Of a stretch of 26,434 bases of DNA, positions 15,494-21,276 are shown piece by piece. The notes beneath the pieces are model-generated. The model was not told where the DNA came from, did no database searches, and worked only from the letters and a program-made list of their open reading frames with translations. The translations under genes and the position numbers were made by a program. Source of the DNA: a virus; IMG/VR virus record IMGVR_UViG_3300020159_001147, positions 1 to 26,434 of that record. One strand, 5' to 3'. Numbering within the stretch: position 1 is the first letter of the stretch; each line of letters begins with the position of its first letter.

Positions 15494-16051
15494 ATGACAA
15501 AAAGATACTGCTCTGAAGAAGATGTTAGGCAGACAGTTAATTTAACGTTCCTTCAGTGTGTTCAAAGGTATGAAAGAAGAGATTCGGAGAAGGGTCCAAT
15601 TCCATTTAGTGCCTTCCTGTACAGCTATTTCTTCTACTTACTAAAAAAGAATGTTGATACATTCTTGATAGACCAATTGGGCAGAAAGTCATTCCCCCTT
15701 TATAATGAAAGTAATAGTGGAGACGAGGGATCTGACCAACAAGAGGGCTTTAATGTTGATACAATAGAGCATGCAGTTACAGATTTAATATTTGCAGGAA
15801 ACGTAGATGAATTTTGGGTATTGGGAGAAAATACTCAACCTCCATTTGATCAACTCTCTGTTCAAGAAAGACAATTAATTAAGTGGAAATATGTAGACGG
15901 AAAGAAATCTTCTGATATAGCTGCTAAAATTACAGAGCACCCAAATACAGTTCGAGAACATATCAGCAAAGTAAAAATAAAACTTAAAGATATACTACTA
16001 TCAGACGGAATGGAAGAGTTCTTGCTGTTAACAAATATAGAAAGAAAATAA
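15494..16051 (+). CDS. Sigma-70-like factor, fragment 3 (C-terminal, 185 aa from ATG)
   Basis: The C-terminal part of the sigma-like factor. The N-terminal half (YCSEEDVRQTVNLTFLQCVQ, then PFSAFLYSYFFYLLKKNV) matches the sigma region 2 helices that bind the -10 element. After an acidic linker (about residues 75-90), the C-terminus (SVQERQLIKWKYVDGKKSSD, then HPNTVREHISKVKIKLKDIL) is a region 4-like helix-turn-helix that would bind -35 DNA. The frame is open back to about 15467, so translation could begin at ATG 15494 without the upstream parts, but region 2 would then be cut short. It would direct host RNA polymerase to phage promoters. Confidence 0.75.
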   Translation: MTKRYCSEEDVRQTVNLTFLQCVQRYERRDSEKGPIPFSAFLYSYFFYLLKKNVDTFLIDQLGRKSFPLYNESNSGDEGSDQQEGFNVDTIEHAVTDLIFAGNVDEFWVLGENTQPPFDQLSVQERQLIKWKYVDGKKSSDIAAKITEHPNTVREHISKVKIKLKDILLSDGMEEFLLLTNIERK

Positions 16052-17231: not shown

Positions 17232-18017
17232 ATGAATATTAATTTTAAACAAGATTATCCAATTATCGTAGGGTTAGCAGGCAAAGCTGGAAGTGGAAAA
17301 ACTTCAGTTGCTGAGTACATGGTTCCAAAAGGTTCTATAGAAACAACTCTTTATGGAATGAAGTGGGATCATATCTTCTACGCACTTCCACTCTATGAGA
17401 TGTCCTCTATAAAGAGATCAATAAGAGGCTTCAACCAAGAGTCTAGACAAATGTATGCTATCCATGATGCGCTATATGAAATATATGGAAGAAGCCCCAT
17501 AGGAACAATACCAGACTACAATACTTTTGTTTCAAAGGTAAAACAAATACACAGCCTCCCAATAGAGGAAGAAGGTGTAAAGCCTAGATCGTTTCTTCAA
17601 AAGGCTGGCGACGTCTGCAGAGACGGTTATGAGGACTGTTTCTCTGAGTGGGCAATAACTAAATCCATAAGACTGTATAGTTCCTATAGAAAGAATTTAA
17701 ATGACGAGGAAGATGAGCTTCCATTTGTTGTTTTTATTTCTGACGTAAGATTTGTTAATGAAGCTCAAAAGATATTAGATCAACCAAATGGAATCGTAAT
17801 TTGCTTTGAGGCCGAAGAAGAAACTCTAAATGATAGAATTTTAAAAAGAGATGGAAGATTGATGAACAGCGATCAAAAAAATCATATATCAGAACAGCAG
17901 ATTGAAACAATAAAATCAATGGCTACTTTTGTTATACCAACAGATAATATGACAATAGAAGAACAAGCTCAGGCAACACTAAAACATCTTGGTATACTAA
18001 AGGAGTCCCATGCCTAA
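17232..18017 (+). CDS. P-loop kinase, probably deoxynucleoside monophosphate kinase-like (261 aa)
   Basis: The Walker A motif is at residues 17-24 (GKAGSGKTS). The middle contains a long helical lid-like insertion (DHIFYALPLYEMSSIKRSIR, FLQKAGDVCRDGYED). A Walker-B-like strand is followed by FISDVRFVNEAQ and ICFEAEEETLNDRILKRDGR, which fits the dNMP-kinase family used by phages to phosphorylate dNMPs for replication. ATG 17232 is preferred to the upstream in-frame start at 17139, which would overlap RNase H by 76 nt. The 7-nt gene overlap with the next gene also fits this operon. Confidence 0.7.
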   Translation: MNINFKQDYPIIVGLAGKAGSGKTSVAEYMVPKGSIETTLYGMKWDHIFYALPLYEMSSIKRSIRGFNQESRQMYAIHDALYEIYGRSPIGTIPDYNTFVSKVKQIHSLPIEEEGVKPRSFLQKAGDVCRDGYEDCFSEWAITKSIRLYSSYRKNLNDEEDELPFVVFISDVRFVNEAQKILDQPNGIVICFEAEEETLNDRILKRDGRLMNSDQKNHISEQQIETIKSMATFVIPTDNMTIEEQAQATLKHLGILKESHA

Positions 18018-18330
18018 GGTATCCAAAAACGCATTTGAACAATCAACAGACTCTCCAATAGAACAGGTAGTAAATTTAATGGCACAAGAAATATCAATCT
18101 CTACAAACCCAGTATTTATTTGTGGAGTAAACAGAAAAATAAATATAGGAAACTTTGAAAACATAGACGTCTACGCTGGGATTACCATCCCGCTAACTGG
18201 CATTGATCCGTCTGACAGAGAAGCTCTTTCTGAGGCAATTCAAGCTGCAGCAGCAGACGGTTTTGCCATGGTCTCAAGAGAGACTGGGGAAAGATATACT
18301 TTAATTAAAGAGTCCCAGCAAGGAAAATAA
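18010..18330 (+). CDS. Small conserved-looking hypothetical protein (106 aa)
   Basis: An N-terminal linker is followed by a beta-alpha-beta-like core (INIGNFENIDVYAGITIPLT, then DPSDREALSEAIQAAAADGF) and a short basic end. No named family is recognised. It overlaps the kinase by 8 nt and ends the + strand operon that began near 14605. It is followed by an AT-rich gap with a promoter. Confidence 0.6.
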   Translation: MPKVSKNAFEQSTDSPIEQVVNLMAQEISISTNPVFICGVNRKINIGNFENIDVYAGITIPLTGIDPSDREALSEAIQAAAADGFAMVSRETGERYTLIKESQQGK

Positions 18331-18408: not shown

Positions 18409-18711
18409 ATGATTAACAAGCTAGCAAAGAAAGTCACCTCATTCTTGGTGGGTTTCAAGAAAAAGAATGCAAAGTCCGTTCAGGATTCTGTCATCAATAC
18501 AGTTATTGACAAGGTTACCGAAGATATCACTGAGGTAGCAGCAGTAGCAGAAAAGGCAGTAGAAAATGTCTTGGAAGTTGCAGCTGAAGAAACCAAGAAG
18601 GTAACAAAGGTTGTGGAAACCAAGGTTCCAAAGGCCCCCAAAAAGGCTGCTACTGAGCCAAAGAAGGCAGCAGCTAAACCTAAGGGTAGACCAAAGAAAG
18701 ATCCACAGTAA
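18409..18711 (+). CDS. Basic histone-H1-like, AT-hook-like protein (100 aa)
   Basis: The N-terminal half is a helix (MINKLAKKVTSFLVGFKKKN, then an acidic helix with many Val/Ala). The C-terminal 30 residues are Pro/Lys/Ala-rich (VPKAPKKAATEPKKAAAKPK) and end in GRPKK, the core of an AT-hook that binds the minor groove of AT-rich DNA. It probably binds or compacts DNA, possibly inside the virion or on intracellular phage DNA. It has its own promoter candidate and terminator, so it is likely made at its own level. Confidence 0.7.
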   Translation: MINKLAKKVTSFLVGFKKKNAKSVQDSVINTVIDKVTEDITEVAAVAEKAVENVLEVAAEETKKVTKVVETKVPKAPKKAATEPKKAAAKPKGRPKKDPQ

Positions 18712-18723
18712 TCTTCAGATATT

Positions 18724-18765
18724 AAAGGGTTCTCTTAGATTTAAAAGTTTAAGGGAACCCTTTTT
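18724..18765 (+). terminator. Rho-independent terminator
   Basis: A 14-bp stem (18724-18737 with 18750-18763, one T-G wobble) has a 12-nt loop and is followed by a T run. It lies 13 nt after the histone-like gene and is among the strongest terminators in the window. Confidence 0.85.
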
Positions 18766-18782
18766 CTGTTACTATATACCTT

Positions 18783-18896
18783 ATGTCATACGCTCAATAC
18801 AGAAGATTAATTAAAAATAATTGGTCAAACAAAGAGTCTAATAAGCCTCAAGAATCTGATGAGCAGGAAGAAACTTTACCAGCAGAAGAAGAATAA
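18783..18896 (+). CDS. Tiny acidic protein (37 aa)
   Basis: ATG at 18783 starts MSYAQYRRLIKNNWSNKESN and continues with a strongly acidic tail (ESDEQEETLPAEEE). It sits right after the terminator and right before the 64-aa gene. There is no clear Shine-Dalgarno; an AT-rich TATATA just upstream suggests it could be leaderless. The basic head with acidic tail is the opposite of its neighbours. Confidence 0.5.
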   Translation: MSYAQYRRLIKNNWSNKESNKPQESDEQEETLPAEEE

Positions 18897-18898
18897 TA

Positions 18899-19093
18899 AT
18901 GGTAATGAAAAAAGTAGTTGGAATTAGTGGCTTTAAATATGCTACTAAACCCAAGATGGGTACAAGTAATGTGTTTAATGGTTTATTTTTAAGCGCATAT
19001 GGCGAAAAGAAAATAGCAAAAAGTTTCAAAAAAGAACAAACTAAAATGAAAGGCAAAAGCAAAAATGGCAAAAGCAAAAAAGGCAAAAAGTAG
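18899..19093 (+). CDS. Small basic protein (64 aa)
   Basis: The N-terminal half is a compact beta-like domain (VVGISGFKYATKPKMGTSNV) and the end is a run of basic residues (KMKGKSKNGKSKKGKK). It starts three bases after the previous stop. This type (short fold plus Lys/Gly tail) recurs in this cluster. Role unknown, perhaps DNA-associated. Confidence 0.55.
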   Translation: MVMKKVVGISGFKYATKPKMGTSNVFNGLFLSAYGEKKIAKSFKKEQTKMKGKSKNGKSKKGKK

Positions 19094-19202
19094 TTCAGCT
19101 CCAAAAGGCGCAGCTGCTCCAAAATTAACACCAGGCTTTATGTATGGCACAATGCCAAACGCATCTGCTCCAAAAGCTGCTACAGGTAAAAAGAAAAAGT
19201 AA
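19065..19202 (+). CDS. Tiny Lys/Ala-rich protein (45 aa)
   Basis: Overlaps the 64-aa gene by 29 nt in another frame. It starts MAKAKKAKSSSAPKGAAAPK, has the middle block FMYGTMPNASAPKAA, and ends GKKKK. The same Ala-Pro-Lys style is seen in several nearby genes, and its end lies 2 nt before the next start. These points support a real gene, but composition alone cannot prove it. Confidence 0.5.
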   Translation: MAKAKKAKSSSAPKGAAAPKLTPGFMYGTMPNASAPKAATGKKKK

Positions 19203-19204
19203 CA

Positions 19205-19492
19205 ATGGCTACGCCTAAGGACTCCAGGCTTAAGAAGGCTGGGGTAAGTGGATATAACCAACCTAAGAGGACACCAAGTCACCCAAAGAAGTCACACGTA
19301 GTGGTGGCAAAGCAAGGTTCAAAGGTGAAAACAATTAGATTTGGCCAACAAGGCGTTTCTGGCTCACCCAAAAAAGAGGGTGAGTCAAAGTCTTATGCTG
19401 CAAGAAGAAAATCTTTCCAAGCACGACATGCTAAGAACATAGGCAAAGGTCCTATGTCAGCAGCATATTGGGCCAATAAGGTCAAGTGGTAA
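19205..19492 (+). CDS. Small basic protein resembling DUF6321 (95 aa)
   Basis: The C-terminal half has the pattern of a small domain seen in phage and large-virus proteins: VKTIRFGQQGVSGSPKKEGE, then ARRKSFQARHAKNIGKGPMS, then AAYWANKVKW. The Arg-Lys-Ser-Phe...Arg-His block and the terminal aromatic-Lys-Trp are the typical features. The N-terminal half is basic and disordered-looking. No function is known for the domain; its place in a run of small basic proteins suggests a virion or DNA-binding role. The family name is from memory and should be checked. Confidence 0.65.
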   Translation: MATPKDSRLKKAGVSGYNQPKRTPSHPKKSHVVVAKQGSKVKTIRFGQQGVSGSPKKEGESKSYAARRKSFQARHAKNIGKGPMSAAYWANKVKW

Positions 19493-19493
19493 T

Positions 19494-19979
19494 ATGGAAG
19501 CTGTTTTTGTAGCCCTTATAGCAGCAGTAGGTGGTATCCTAGCAGCGCTTGTACAAAAGGGTCGTAAAGAAAACAAGGACGACCACAACGTGGTCGCCAA
19601 CTTGCTAATTGACGTGAAAGATGATATCATTCATCTTCATAAAAAGATAGATCATGTAGATGATCAAGTCGATAAGGTCGATGACAAAATAGATATGCAT
19701 ATTAAATGGCATCGGGAAACAAAAAAAATAATACTAGTATTAAACAAGGAGAAAATAATGGCTAAGAAAATGTCAGCAAAAGGCGGTAAGGGAGTTTCAG
19801 CTCCAGAACCAACAGTAAGTGCCGGTCAGGCAAAACAGGGTATTCGCCCAATCAAAAATACAAAGGGTCAGAATATTGAGAAGAAGGGTGCATCAGCTCC
19901 AAAGCCTGCAGCCTCGACTGGTCAGATGAAGATCGCAAAGCGCCCAATTAAGAACACCAAGGGTAAGGTTATCGGCTGA
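19494..19979 (+). CDS. Membrane-anchored coiled-coil protein fused in frame to a basic protein (161 aa as read)
   Basis: Residues 2-20 are a transmembrane helix (EAVFVALIAAVGGILAALV), and residues 30-72 are a His/Asp/Lys coiled-coil-like segment (DDIIHLHKKIDHVDDQVDKV). This layout is typical of small phage holin-like or DUF2746-like proteins, which usually end soon after HIKWH. From residue 89 the frame becomes a different, basic protein (MAKKMSAKGGKGV...) with its own Shine-Dalgarno. The join is probably not natural. A +1 shift at CGG 19713-19715 would end the membrane protein at TAA 19729-19731 with 78 residues, leaving the basic gene separate. See findings. Confidence 0.55.
   Translation: MEAVFVALIAAVGGILAALVQKGRKENKDDHNVVANLLIDVKDDIIHLHKKIDHVDDQVDKVDDKIDMHIKWHRETKKIILVLNKEKIMAKKMSAKGGKGVSAPEPTVSAGQAKQGIRPIKNTKGQNIEKKGASAPKPAASTGQMKIAKRPIKNTKGKVIG
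19758..19979 (+). CDS. Small basic repeat protein (73 aa), in-frame internal start
   Basis: ATG at 19758 has a very good Shine-Dalgarno (AAGGAG at 19746-19751, 6-nt spacing), though it lies inside the 19494 frame. The protein has two imperfect repeats (about SAPEPTVSAGQ ... RPIKNTKG and SAPKPAASTGQ ... RPIKNTKG) and a basic character like its neighbours. The signal at its start makes it likely that it is translated separately, whether or not the longer frame is also read through. Confidence 0.65.
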   Translation: MAKKMSAKGGKGVSAPEPTVSAGQAKQGIRPIKNTKGQNIEKKGASAPKPAASTGQMKIAKRPIKNTKGKVIG

Positions 19980-20009
19980 TAATCCTACAACGTAGGTGTT
20001 TGATTTAAG

Positions 20010-20045
20010 TATGGGGGTGGTACTATGATAGGTATCATCCCCATA
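20010..20045 (+). terminator. Stem-loop, terminator or 3'-end hairpin
   Basis: A 14-bp stem (20010-20023 with 20032-20045, two G-T wobbles) with an 8-nt loop lies 30 nt after the 73-aa gene and just before the Shine-Dalgarno of the next one. No long T run follows. A smaller hairpin CCTAC-AAC-GTAGG (19984-19996) lies before it. Confidence 0.55.
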
Positions 20046-20064
20046 TTATTATCTAAGGAGTAGC

Positions 20065-20271
20065 ATGGCTGCAAAGAAATCAGATAAGAAGTGGATTCAG
20101 GGTGCGATCAAAAGACCTGGTGCGTTCACTGCCAAGGCCAAAAAGGCAGGTAAATCTGTCTCTGGTATGGCAGCTGCCGTTACCAAGAATCCAGGTAAGT
20201 ACAGCAAGTTGACTGTGCAGCAAGCTAATCTTGCAAAGACATTAAAAAAGATTAATAAAAAAGGTAAGTAA
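20065..20271 (+). CDS. Small basic protein (68 aa)
   Basis: Starts after a strong Shine-Dalgarno (AAGGAG, 20055-20060). The N-terminal KKWIQGAIKRPGAFTAKAKK motif is a pattern seen repeatedly in small phage-encoded proteins. The rest is a Lys/Ala-rich helix ending KKINKKGK. Role unknown; it could bind nucleic acid or be packaged. Confidence 0.65.
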   Translation: MAAKKSDKKWIQGAIKRPGAFTAKAKKAGKSVSGMAAAVTKNPGKYSKLTVQQANLAKTLKKINKKGK

Positions 20272-20272
20272 A

Positions 20273-20437
20273 ATGGCAGCAAAGAAACCAAAGAGTTCTG
20301 TTTACAATAACGCTAATAAGAATCTAGACAGAACCATGGATGGATCAAAGTCTGTACCCAAGACTAAAAAGGGTGCGTACGAAGATGCAACCAAAAAAAC
20401 TTTTAGCACCAAAACAAAAACATCAAAAAAGAAGTAG
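20273..20437 (+). CDS. Tiny basic protein (54 aa)
   Basis: ATG at 20273 follows the previous stop by 1 nt. The protein is MAAKKPKSSVYNNANKNLDR, then TMDGSKSVPKTKKGAYEDAT, and ends in a Lys/Thr/Ser tail (KTKTSKKK). No motif is recognised. Start-codon context and Lys-rich tail match its neighbours. Confidence 0.55.
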   Translation: MAAKKPKSSVYNNANKNLDRTMDGSKSVPKTKKGAYEDATKKTFSTKTKTSKKK

Positions 20438-20446
20438 GAAATTATT

Positions 20447-20596
20447 ATGGCTATGAACAAACCATCCGCAAAAAAAATGGCAGGAAAGCCTGCAAAGACA
20501 GCACCAAAAGCAGCAGGCATGACAGCTGCTCAGAAGAAGCTTCCACCATTTATTCAGAAAGCTATTGCTGCAAAGAAGTCAGCAAAGAAAAAATAA
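20447..20596 (+). CDS. Tiny Ala/Lys-rich protein (49 aa)
   Basis: ATG at 20447. The N-terminal part (NKPSAKKMAGKPAKTAPKAA) is disordered-looking. The second half (AAQKKLPPFIQKAIAAKKSA) contains a short amphipathic helix followed by AKKK. Its TAA shares the A of the next ATG. Proteins of this type resemble short DNA-binding or scaffolding peptides. Confidence 0.55.
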   Translation: MAMNKPSAKKMAGKPAKTAPKAAGMTAAQKKLPPFIQKAIAAKKSAKKK

Positions 20597-20775
20597 TGGC
20601 TAAGGTCAATAAGGCTTCAAAACCTGCCCTCTGGTCTGCTGCTAAGTCTCAGGCTAAGGCAAAGTTTGATGTGTATCCTAGCGCCTATGCTAACGCATGG
20701 GCTGCTAAGAAGTATAAATCAATGGGTGGAACTTGGAAGACTGTCTCTTCCAAGAAGGCTTCAAAGAAGAAGTAA
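20596..20775 (+). CDS. Small basic protein with a PSAYANAWAAKKY motif (59 aa)
   Basis: ATG at 20596 overlaps the previous stop by 1 nt. It has a clear aromatic block (FDVYPSAYANAWAAKKYKSM, then GGTWKTV) followed by a Lys tail. The YPSAYANA block is a short motif I recall from small phage and large-virus proteins of unknown function. It sits beside DUF5872-like and DUF6321-like genes, and the three may travel together. Confidence 0.6.
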   Translation: MAKVNKASKPALWSAAKSQAKAKFDVYPSAYANAWAAKKYKSMGGTWKTVSSKKASKKK

Positions 20776-20776
20776 A

Positions 20777-21064
20777 ATGGCTGGCCCTAAAGGTGTTGGT
20801 TTAACTAAATGGTTTGACCAGAAGTGGGTGAACATAGGTGCGCCAAAGAAAAAGGGCAAGTACCAGCCTTGCGGAACGTCTGGAGTTGGTGGTTCAGGAT
20901 ATGCAAAGTGTGTTCCAGTAGCTAAAGCTAAATCAATGTCTCCTGCTCAGAAGAAAAGTGCTGTTCAAAGGAAGAGAAGTTCTGGAACTCCTGAAAAAGG
21001 ATCAAAGGGACAAGCTCCTAAAAATGTATCAACTTTTGTTAAGTCTAAAAAAAAGAGTAAATAA
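20777..21064 (+). CDS. Small basic protein resembling DUF5872 (95 aa)
   Basis: ATG at 20777 lies one base after the previous stop, so it is preferred to the in-frame start at 20666, which would overlap that gene. The N-terminus (GLTKWFDQKWVNIGAPKKKG) and the Cys-containing middle (PCGTSGVGGSGYAKCVPVAK) followed by SMSPAQKKSAVQRKRSS match the DUF5872 pattern. The tail is Lys/Ser-rich. Function unknown; the family name is from memory. Confidence 0.65.
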   Translation: MAGPKGVGLTKWFDQKWVNIGAPKKKGKYQPCGTSGVGGSGYAKCVPVAKAKSMSPAQKKSAVQRKRSSGTPEKGSKGQAPKNVSTFVKSKKKSK

Positions 21065-21276
21065 TGTCAGAGGAACAATCCTTTAGTGGCTTTATGCCAA
21101 TGATTTCCCAAATAAGCATAAGCACAGAAAATACAATGCTGAACACTGAAGGGCAAATAATGAAGGCTCATGAATTTAAAGTTACAACTAGAGATAATGA
21201 AGACTATGTTTTTAGTATTGAAAACGTAGATCTTATGAGACTTTATTTTTTAATAATGAAAATTAATAATTCTTAA
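21064..21276 (+). CDS. Small hypothetical protein (70 aa)
   Basis: Overlaps the previous stop as TAATG. It is not Lys-rich. The sequence (MISQISISTENTMLNTEGQI, then FKVTTRDNEDYVFSIENVDL) looks like a small beta domain with a C-terminal helix (MRLYFLIMKINNS). No family is recognised. Confidence 0.55.
   Translation: MSEEQSFSGFMPMISQISISTENTMLNTEGQIMKAHEFKVTTRDNEDYVFSIENVDLMRLYFLIMKINNS

Follow-up and report, generated by a model that had tools for sequence, protein, structure and literature searches.

The virus record IMGVR_UViG_3300020159_001147 from the IMG/VR database (26,434 nucleotides, linear, apparently a fragment; the whole stretch is hereafter called the window) contains, at positions 18409-21064 of the + strand, an island of about a dozen small genes, g02 to g12, which are co-directional, mostly abut or overlap by a few bases and for the most part encode very basic proteins. 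The question raised by this locus is whether such tiny frames are genes at all and, if so, at which stage of infection a set of small Lys-rich proteins would act. It was concluded, with a probability of roughly 0.6, that the island encodes small, strongly basic, head-associated proteins working like the internal proteins of phage T4. This reading is carried by the following observations: the island consists of genuine conserved small basic genes, their homologues occur repeatedly in the head modules of other phages, and their domains are found in fused proteins with protease-type junctions. We infer packaging, DNA contact and late expression for the proteins of the window phage, a large phage of aquatic origin, as well as cleavage of the fused forms. 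The core of the island comprises three members, g06, g11 and g12.

Composition and conservation of the island

The features of the island are listed below. Frequencies refer to 57 deduplicated related loci from IMG/VR (the 57 relatives), the third-position fraction is the share of nucleotide differences falling at third codon positions, aa denotes amino acids, pI the isoelectric point and E the expectation value of a profile match.

g02, 18409-18711, + strand: 100 aa, basic, Ala/Lys-rich, one C-terminal AT-hook-like KGRPKK; in 29/57 relatives.
Terminator-like hairpin, 18724-18763, + strand: 18-pair stem followed by a T-rich tail; this long hairpin separates the AT-hook-like gene g02 from the other island genes.
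g03, 18783-18896, + strand: 37 aa, acidic, pI 4.6; in 10/57 relatives.
g04, 18899-19093, + strand: 64 aa, basic, KKGKK tail; in 12/57 relatives; third-position fraction 0.63.
g05, 19065-19202, + strand: 45 aa, basic, KKKK tail, overlaps g04; in 5/57 relatives; third-position fraction 0.60.
g06, 19205-19492, + strand: 95 aa, core member, phrog_7595 (E = 1e-40), weak DUF5754/DUF6321 similarity; in 37/57 relatives.
g07a, 19494-19757, + strand: probable membrane/coiled-coil protein, phrog_32850 (E = 2.4e-13); a separate gene in most relatives.
g07b, 19758-19979, + strand: 73 aa, basic, internally repeated SAPxP...RPIKNTKG unit, own ribosome-binding site.
g08, 20065-20271, + strand: 68 aa, basic, phrog_20603 (E = 1.3e-19); in 56/57 relatives.
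g09, 20273-20437, + strand: 54 aa, basic, KKK tail; in 15/57 relatives.
g10, 20447-20596, + strand: 49 aa, basic, KKK tail; in 56/57 relatives.
g11, 20596-20775, + strand: 59 aa, YPSAYANA protein, phrog_27331 (E = 4.5e-5), sub-cut-off match to the first part of DUF5872; in 57/57 relatives.
g12, 20777-21064, + strand: 95 aa, two conserved Cys, phrog_23735 (E = 7e-25); in 57/57 relatives.

A fraction of Lys plus Arg (K+R) of at least 0.20 was found in 8 of 10 non-overlapping open reading frames (ORFs) of the island and in 1 of 40 on the rest of the + strand (Fisher p = 7e-7), with mean K+R values of 0.244 and 0.129, respectively. The basic members had a predicted pI of 9.8-11.1. The borders of the island are sharp, since the genes flanking it (18010-18330 and 21064-21276) are both acidic. 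The initial annotation, made from the letters alone, had described a Lys-rich run of tiny genes here, nearly every one under 100 codons and most ending in KKK-type tails. The run is indeed present at 18409-21064 and enriched in basic residues; however, KK- or KKK-type tails close 7 of 12 proteins, which is about half rather than most, the acidic g03 and the membrane/coiled-coil g07a are not basic, and the ORF 19494-19979 has 161 codons, being two genes merged by the loss of a stop. In most relatives with a close homologue, the first half of this ORF ends in a stop codon; read-through is confined to the window and its nearest relatives (L260/L261 and L340/L341; such handles denote contigs), and the internal ATG at 19758 retains a good ribosome-binding site, so that a fusion product and a separate g07b product may both be possible. 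The 161-aa membrane fusion protein was rejected as the ancestral state, its halves being separate genes in other relatives. A second, shorter hairpin is located at 19984-19996, and a sigma-factor-like protein encoded upstream of the island (15494-16051; phrog_351, Sigma70 region 4) could be a late sigma factor.

Among the 57 relatives, the region from g01 to g12 contained between 6 and 16 small ORFs, and K+R was at least 0.20 in 6 to 12 of these. The g07 gene was found in 51 of them, and g02 to g05 and g09 turned over faster than the other island genes. Codon positions were compared with relatives of 70-97% nucleotide identity, for which the random expectation is 0.33: the third-position share of differences was 0.69-0.72 for g06, g08, g11 and g12 and 0.53-0.67 for those remaining island genes for which more than two pairs were available. 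The island frames are real genes, as third codon positions account for most of the differences seen against relatives, and most of them are under purifying selection; support for a real gene is weakest for g03, g05 and g09. A lack of conservation in related phages had been named in advance as the finding that would speak against the proposal, and conservation was found in the 57 deduplicated relatives. Relatives of the window phage reach 171-211 kilobases (kb), and one of 111 kb carries contractile-tail sheath genes, a ribonucleotide reductase, virion structural proteins, an endolysin and tail fibres. A nucleotide search with the polymerase gene among cultured phages yielded no useful relatives.

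Families, head-module homologues and fused forms of the core trio

The PHROG profile matches of g06, g08, g11 and g12 were significant, and all four families (7595, 20603, 27331 and 23735) are annotated as of unknown function; the head-module context, the fusions and the junction motifs are added here. The DUF6321-like and DUF5872-like domains pointed out by the initial annotation are recognisable as similarities, but the window proteins themselves stay below the curated Pfam cut-offs: g11 matched DUF5872 with 17.8 bits (cut-off 27.5), g12 did not match DUF5872, and g06 matched DUF6321 with 14.9 bits (cut-off 28.5) and Tlr6f/DUF5754 with 12.9 bits, far under the cut-off of 27.4. The closest relative of the g06 family to DUF5754 was L163 (23.9 bits, E = 4.2e-5, sub-threshold), and relatives of this family likewise gave sub-threshold DUF6321 matches. 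Relatives in other phages pass the cut-offs, namely L065 and L041 for DUF5872 (54.2 and 52.3 bits, respectively) and L014 for DUF6321 (83.4 bits). Positions 1-39 of DUF5872 were matched by g11-type proteins and positions 53-109 by a g12-type protein; thus, to judge by these alignments, the adjacent g11 and g12 look like two halves of DUF5872. The papers found on DUF5872 and DUF5754 name these domains without a tested function, and none was found for DUF6321. The AT-hook-like motif, assessed against an RGRP core with basic flanks, is a single KGRP(KK) at the C-terminus of g02; GRP is kept in 31 of 39 homologues, and no Pfam AT-hook match was obtained at E <= 1. Sequence searches for solved-structure relatives of g06, g11 and g12 gave none that was significant. 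The g06 model (predicted local distance difference test, pLDDT, 75) is a beta-hairpin followed by helices; it had no match in the PDB, and in a library of viral models it matched phage proteins, five models at E <= 0.001 and others more weakly, the weaker matches including an XkdF-annotated protein (E = 0.12). The g12 model was unreliable (pLDDT 63).

Searches with tblastn recovered g06 in 47 phage records (roseobacters, cyanobacteria, Puniceispirillum and others) and g12 in Pelagibacter phages and the lake phage DSL-LC04, and g11 and g08 had no match among phage records; at least 600 stretches related to g11 were present in IMG/VR. For 31 of 39 deduplicated stand-alone g11 genes at loci outside the window lineage (a handful of which are truncated contigs of that lineage), g12 lay directly downstream of g11. 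Contig L077 starts this order with the portal, the minor head/head morphogenesis protein and two tiny ORFs rich in Lys; then come g11, g12 and g06, followed by a scaffold-like acidic protein of 242 aa and the major capsid protein. The tiny ORFs (L077:3756-3994; 41 and 38 aa), adjoining g11-g12-g06 in a capsid module, present the window island in miniature. In phages KBS-S-2A and MED4-184, g06 immediately precedes an acidic protein of 223-225 aa, which is followed by the coat gene, and in MW202867 it lies among P22-like head-completion genes, between the tail accessory factor and the stabilisation protein. In DSL-LC04, g11 and g12 are located between capsid/cement and adaptor genes; the orders g06, g11, g12, terminase (L022) and terminase, g11, g12, portal (L053) were also found. 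In cobaviruses, g06 is near the endolysin and internal virion proteins, and in HMO-2011-type phages, it is near lysis or structural genes, being a few kilobases from the terminase in CRP-9. Cultured phages in which the domains are stand-alone genes include Pelagibacter phage HTVC027P (g11 and g12) as well as roseophage SIO1, Lentibacter phage ICBM2 and cyanophage KBS-S-2A (g06).

In many aquatic phages, these domains occur in longer chains. The g11 domain was carried by 120 unique proteins of more than 150 aa, of which 53 combined g12 and g11 and 28 also included g06; PHROG and Pfam profiles independently confirmed the fusions (L014, DUF6321 at 1.8e-23; L030 and L055, phrog_7595 plus phrog_27331), and relatives of one fused protein alone were found in 493 phage records. 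Around the fused forms, the terminase large subunit was the commonest gene and the portal the next, with sheath and head maturation protease among others, and in T4-like cyanophages, the DUF6321 protein sits between terminase subunits gp16 and gp17. Many fused proteins contain a further recurring bead, CWxxxxQxGMKKKGxRxVPNCVP (phrog_9737 and others), for example L014:5545-6936, L018:5707-7368 and L025:1191-2861, the last of which has a nucleotidyltransferase-like domain after the small-domain beads.

The junctions were analysed in 96 unique fused sequences with the conserved Trp of the g11 domain as an anchor. The motif [LI]-x-E was present at positions -12 to -10 from this Trp in 76 of 96 sequences, compared with 1.1% at other positions of the same proteins; 87 sequences had Glu at -10, and Leu/Ile stood two residues earlier in 76 of these 87, compared with 14% for other Glu residues. 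When sequences with similar upstream parts were merged, 55 of 69 clusters retained the motif. Position -11 is variable, and the motif therefore fits a protease site rather than a structural motif. The g12 domain in fused proteins is preceded by x-x-E|DLRKWF. The T4 protease gp21 cuts after [LI]-x-E, and the proteases of T4, phiKZ and SPN3US cut after a Glu that follows a short motif. The N-termini MKTYEELAE, MENFKEYIDE, MKTFKEYHLDE and MKTYKELIKE of fused proteins resemble the start MKTYQEFIAE of T4 ipII/ipIII (NC_000866), a type of start that targets proteins into the T4 core. The strict capsid-targeting pattern occurred in 10 of 131 N-termini of fused proteins and in 9 of 533 of control proteins (p = 0.001); the loose pattern was weakly enriched (47/131 vs 136/533, p = 0.02), and no argument is built on it. 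The gp21-type protease (PF03420) was found in 4/4 fused contigs of at least 100 kb and in 0/10 stand-alone contigs of that size, a contrast that counts once and not ten times because the ten stand-alone contigs are one lineage. In second-type fused proteins, which have Tyr at the anchor (L041, L046, L050, L065, L071 and L074), no junction site was seen by eye, and no S77 protease was found in second-type fused contigs, most of which are short. Some second-type proteins (L041:5464-6453, L065:5683-6456 and L086:9221-9628) end in a cysteine-containing stretch (CANC...C); the head module of L086 has a gene annotated as a high-potential iron-sulfur protein, and a link between the two is possible.

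Virion data are available for a distant relative in a cyanophage. The published proteome of purified S-CREM2 virions lists gp136 and gp137 (PMC10665884 Table 3), which are the products of the two genes between the terminase subunits. The C-terminus of gp137 is DUF6321-like (RRSSYCSRSAG...RRRWNC, judged by eye). The gp136 protein (L114:4302-5015), annotated as hypothetical, is Lys-rich, has the capsid-targeting-like start MQTFSMFFSE and was detected in virions with 8 unique peptides (PMC10665884). A structural protein of phage RN05-S combines g12-like, g11-like and DUF6321 domains in one chain.

Explanations for the island

Fusion, shared head-module position and protease-type junctions together lead to a concrete hypothesis, namely, that these domains are small basic virus-head proteins. 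According to it, the island proteins would be taken into the procapsid together with the scaffold core and remain on the DNA once it is packaged, which they would neutralise or order; like T4 internal proteins, they might also leave with the DNA at injection. The domains of g11, g12 and g06 would represent a modular kit, used as separate small genes in the window phage, Pelagibacter phages and several podo- and siphovirus-like phages, and strung together in one longer protein, like beads, in other phages, T4-like marine phages among them, where putative prohead-protease sites precede the g11 and g12 domains and some bead proteins have a capsid-targeting-like N-terminus. Cleavage of the bead protein within the prohead would then yield small basic pieces of a similar kind.

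A number of results weigh against this hypothesis. In the relatives of the window phage, the island has replication genes on one side and glycosyltransferase, lysin and tail-fibre genes on the other, and a long distance separates it from the terminase gene in relatives of about 200 kb (137 kb vs 17.6 kb in G028); in Vibrio phage D274, g06 adjoins a recombination module. No gp21-type S77 protease was recognised in the 10 stand-alone relatives of at least 100 kb, none of the 19 contigs tested for the XkdF-type protease PF14550, window relatives included, contained it, and the proteins of the window itself are without capsid-targeting N-termini ending in a gp21-type cleavage site. Among contigs with the junction motif, the protease was found in 13 of approximately 43 tested, most fused contigs being fragments, and the counts of fused proteins are not independent because the source phages are related. 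The detection of gp137 amounts to 4 unique peptides and 4.1% coverage (PMC10665884), which does not establish the basic domain itself as a virion component, and no DNA-binding fold was identified in the fold search with the g06 model.

The initial annotation had proposed virion DNA-packing proteins, injected host-control factors or scaffold peptides. An association with the head is now supported by the gene neighbourhoods, the fusions and a distant relative in virions; the choice among the three is not made by sequence. The proteins might ride in the head and act in the host after ejection, for instance countering nucleases or affecting transcription, like T4 IPI and Alt, and not pack DNA. The fast turnover of the outer members g02-g05 and g09 around a stable core recalls T4-like phages, whose internal proteins are variable and in some cases are ejected and act against restriction (PMC9026906), and one fused protein has a nucleotidyltransferase-like domain; however, g11, g12 and g06 are conserved across unrelated phages and hosts far beyond what is usual for host-specific effectors, and the small proteins showed neither an effector-like fold nor a catalytic motif, which makes host control an unlikely reading. 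Even less probable is a role restricted to assembly, in which scaffold or core peptides give the prohead its form and disappear or are broken down before the head matures: the genes adjoin a scaffold-like gene in L077, KBS-S-2A and MED4-184, and T4 core proteins are cut into small peptides that exit the head, but the junction sites would free the conserved domains intact rather than destroy them, and the domain sequences are conserved more strongly than a disposable peptide needs.

A function in the infected cell and outside the virion, for instance as nucleoid, ribosome or RNA-binding proteins by which DNA is compacted or protected or translation is redirected, would agree with the high Lys content, the AT-hook-like motif and the position of the island beside replication and nucleotide genes, not head genes, in the window lineage. 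Set against the homologues in head modules of unrelated phages, the prohead-protease-type junctions and the distant relative detected in virions, it was judged improbable, slightly more so than the assembly role. Small size and simple composition could also be expected of chance or low-complexity ORFs without function, an explanation that is hardly credible in view of the third-codon-position bias and the conservation in 57 relatives and many unrelated phages, and that is ruled out for g06, g08, g11 and g12 by the codon-position pattern together with conservation. Head-associated basic proteins are thus the explanation preferred here. It predicts exact cleavage sites, at the E|KNVPT and E|DLRKWF junctions, and available mass-spectrometry data sets of cyanophages can be searched for them. 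Short Lys-rich proteins are poorly covered both by gene finders and by tryptic proteomics, which may have concealed this class.

Relation to known viral systems

DUF5872, DUF6321 and Tlr6f/DUF5754 occur widely in aquatic viruses and are uncharacterised. DUF5872 in Pfam occurs in algal large DNA viruses and phages; the window proteins that resemble its two halves are encoded by separate genes and stay below the cut-off. Conservation of Tlr6f, a protein of unknown function, has been reported for polinton-like viruses, virophages and giant viruses as well as for some phages (PMC4642659); its putative homology to g06 is a lead under the curated thresholds. More tentatively, and with the balance of judgement against it, it may be proposed that tailed phages, algal giant viruses and polinton-like viruses share a kit of small basic capsid-internal domains (g11 plus g12 corresponding to DUF5872, and g06 to Tlr6f/DUF5754/DUF6321), which each lineage would encode in one of two ways, by separate genes grouped in an island or by a polyprotein that is cleaved within the prohead. 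If this is true, the kit would be a widespread, hitherto unrecognised virion DNA-associated system. The DUF6321 proteins of T4-like cyanophages (S-CREM2 gp137 and RN05-S) have domains related to those of the island, in fused multi-domain form there and as single-domain proteins in the island.

With the internal proteins of T4, the island shares small basic proteins (pI as given above), and some of its fused relatives have a T4-like targeting start and [LI]xE sites before their domains. The differences are that no sequence homology between T4 internal proteins and island proteins was seen, that the window proteins are without a targeting sequence, and that their relatives are without a detectable gp21-type protease. 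By the tests made, the island is not a member of the T4 internal-protein system, but this is the system that it most resembles.

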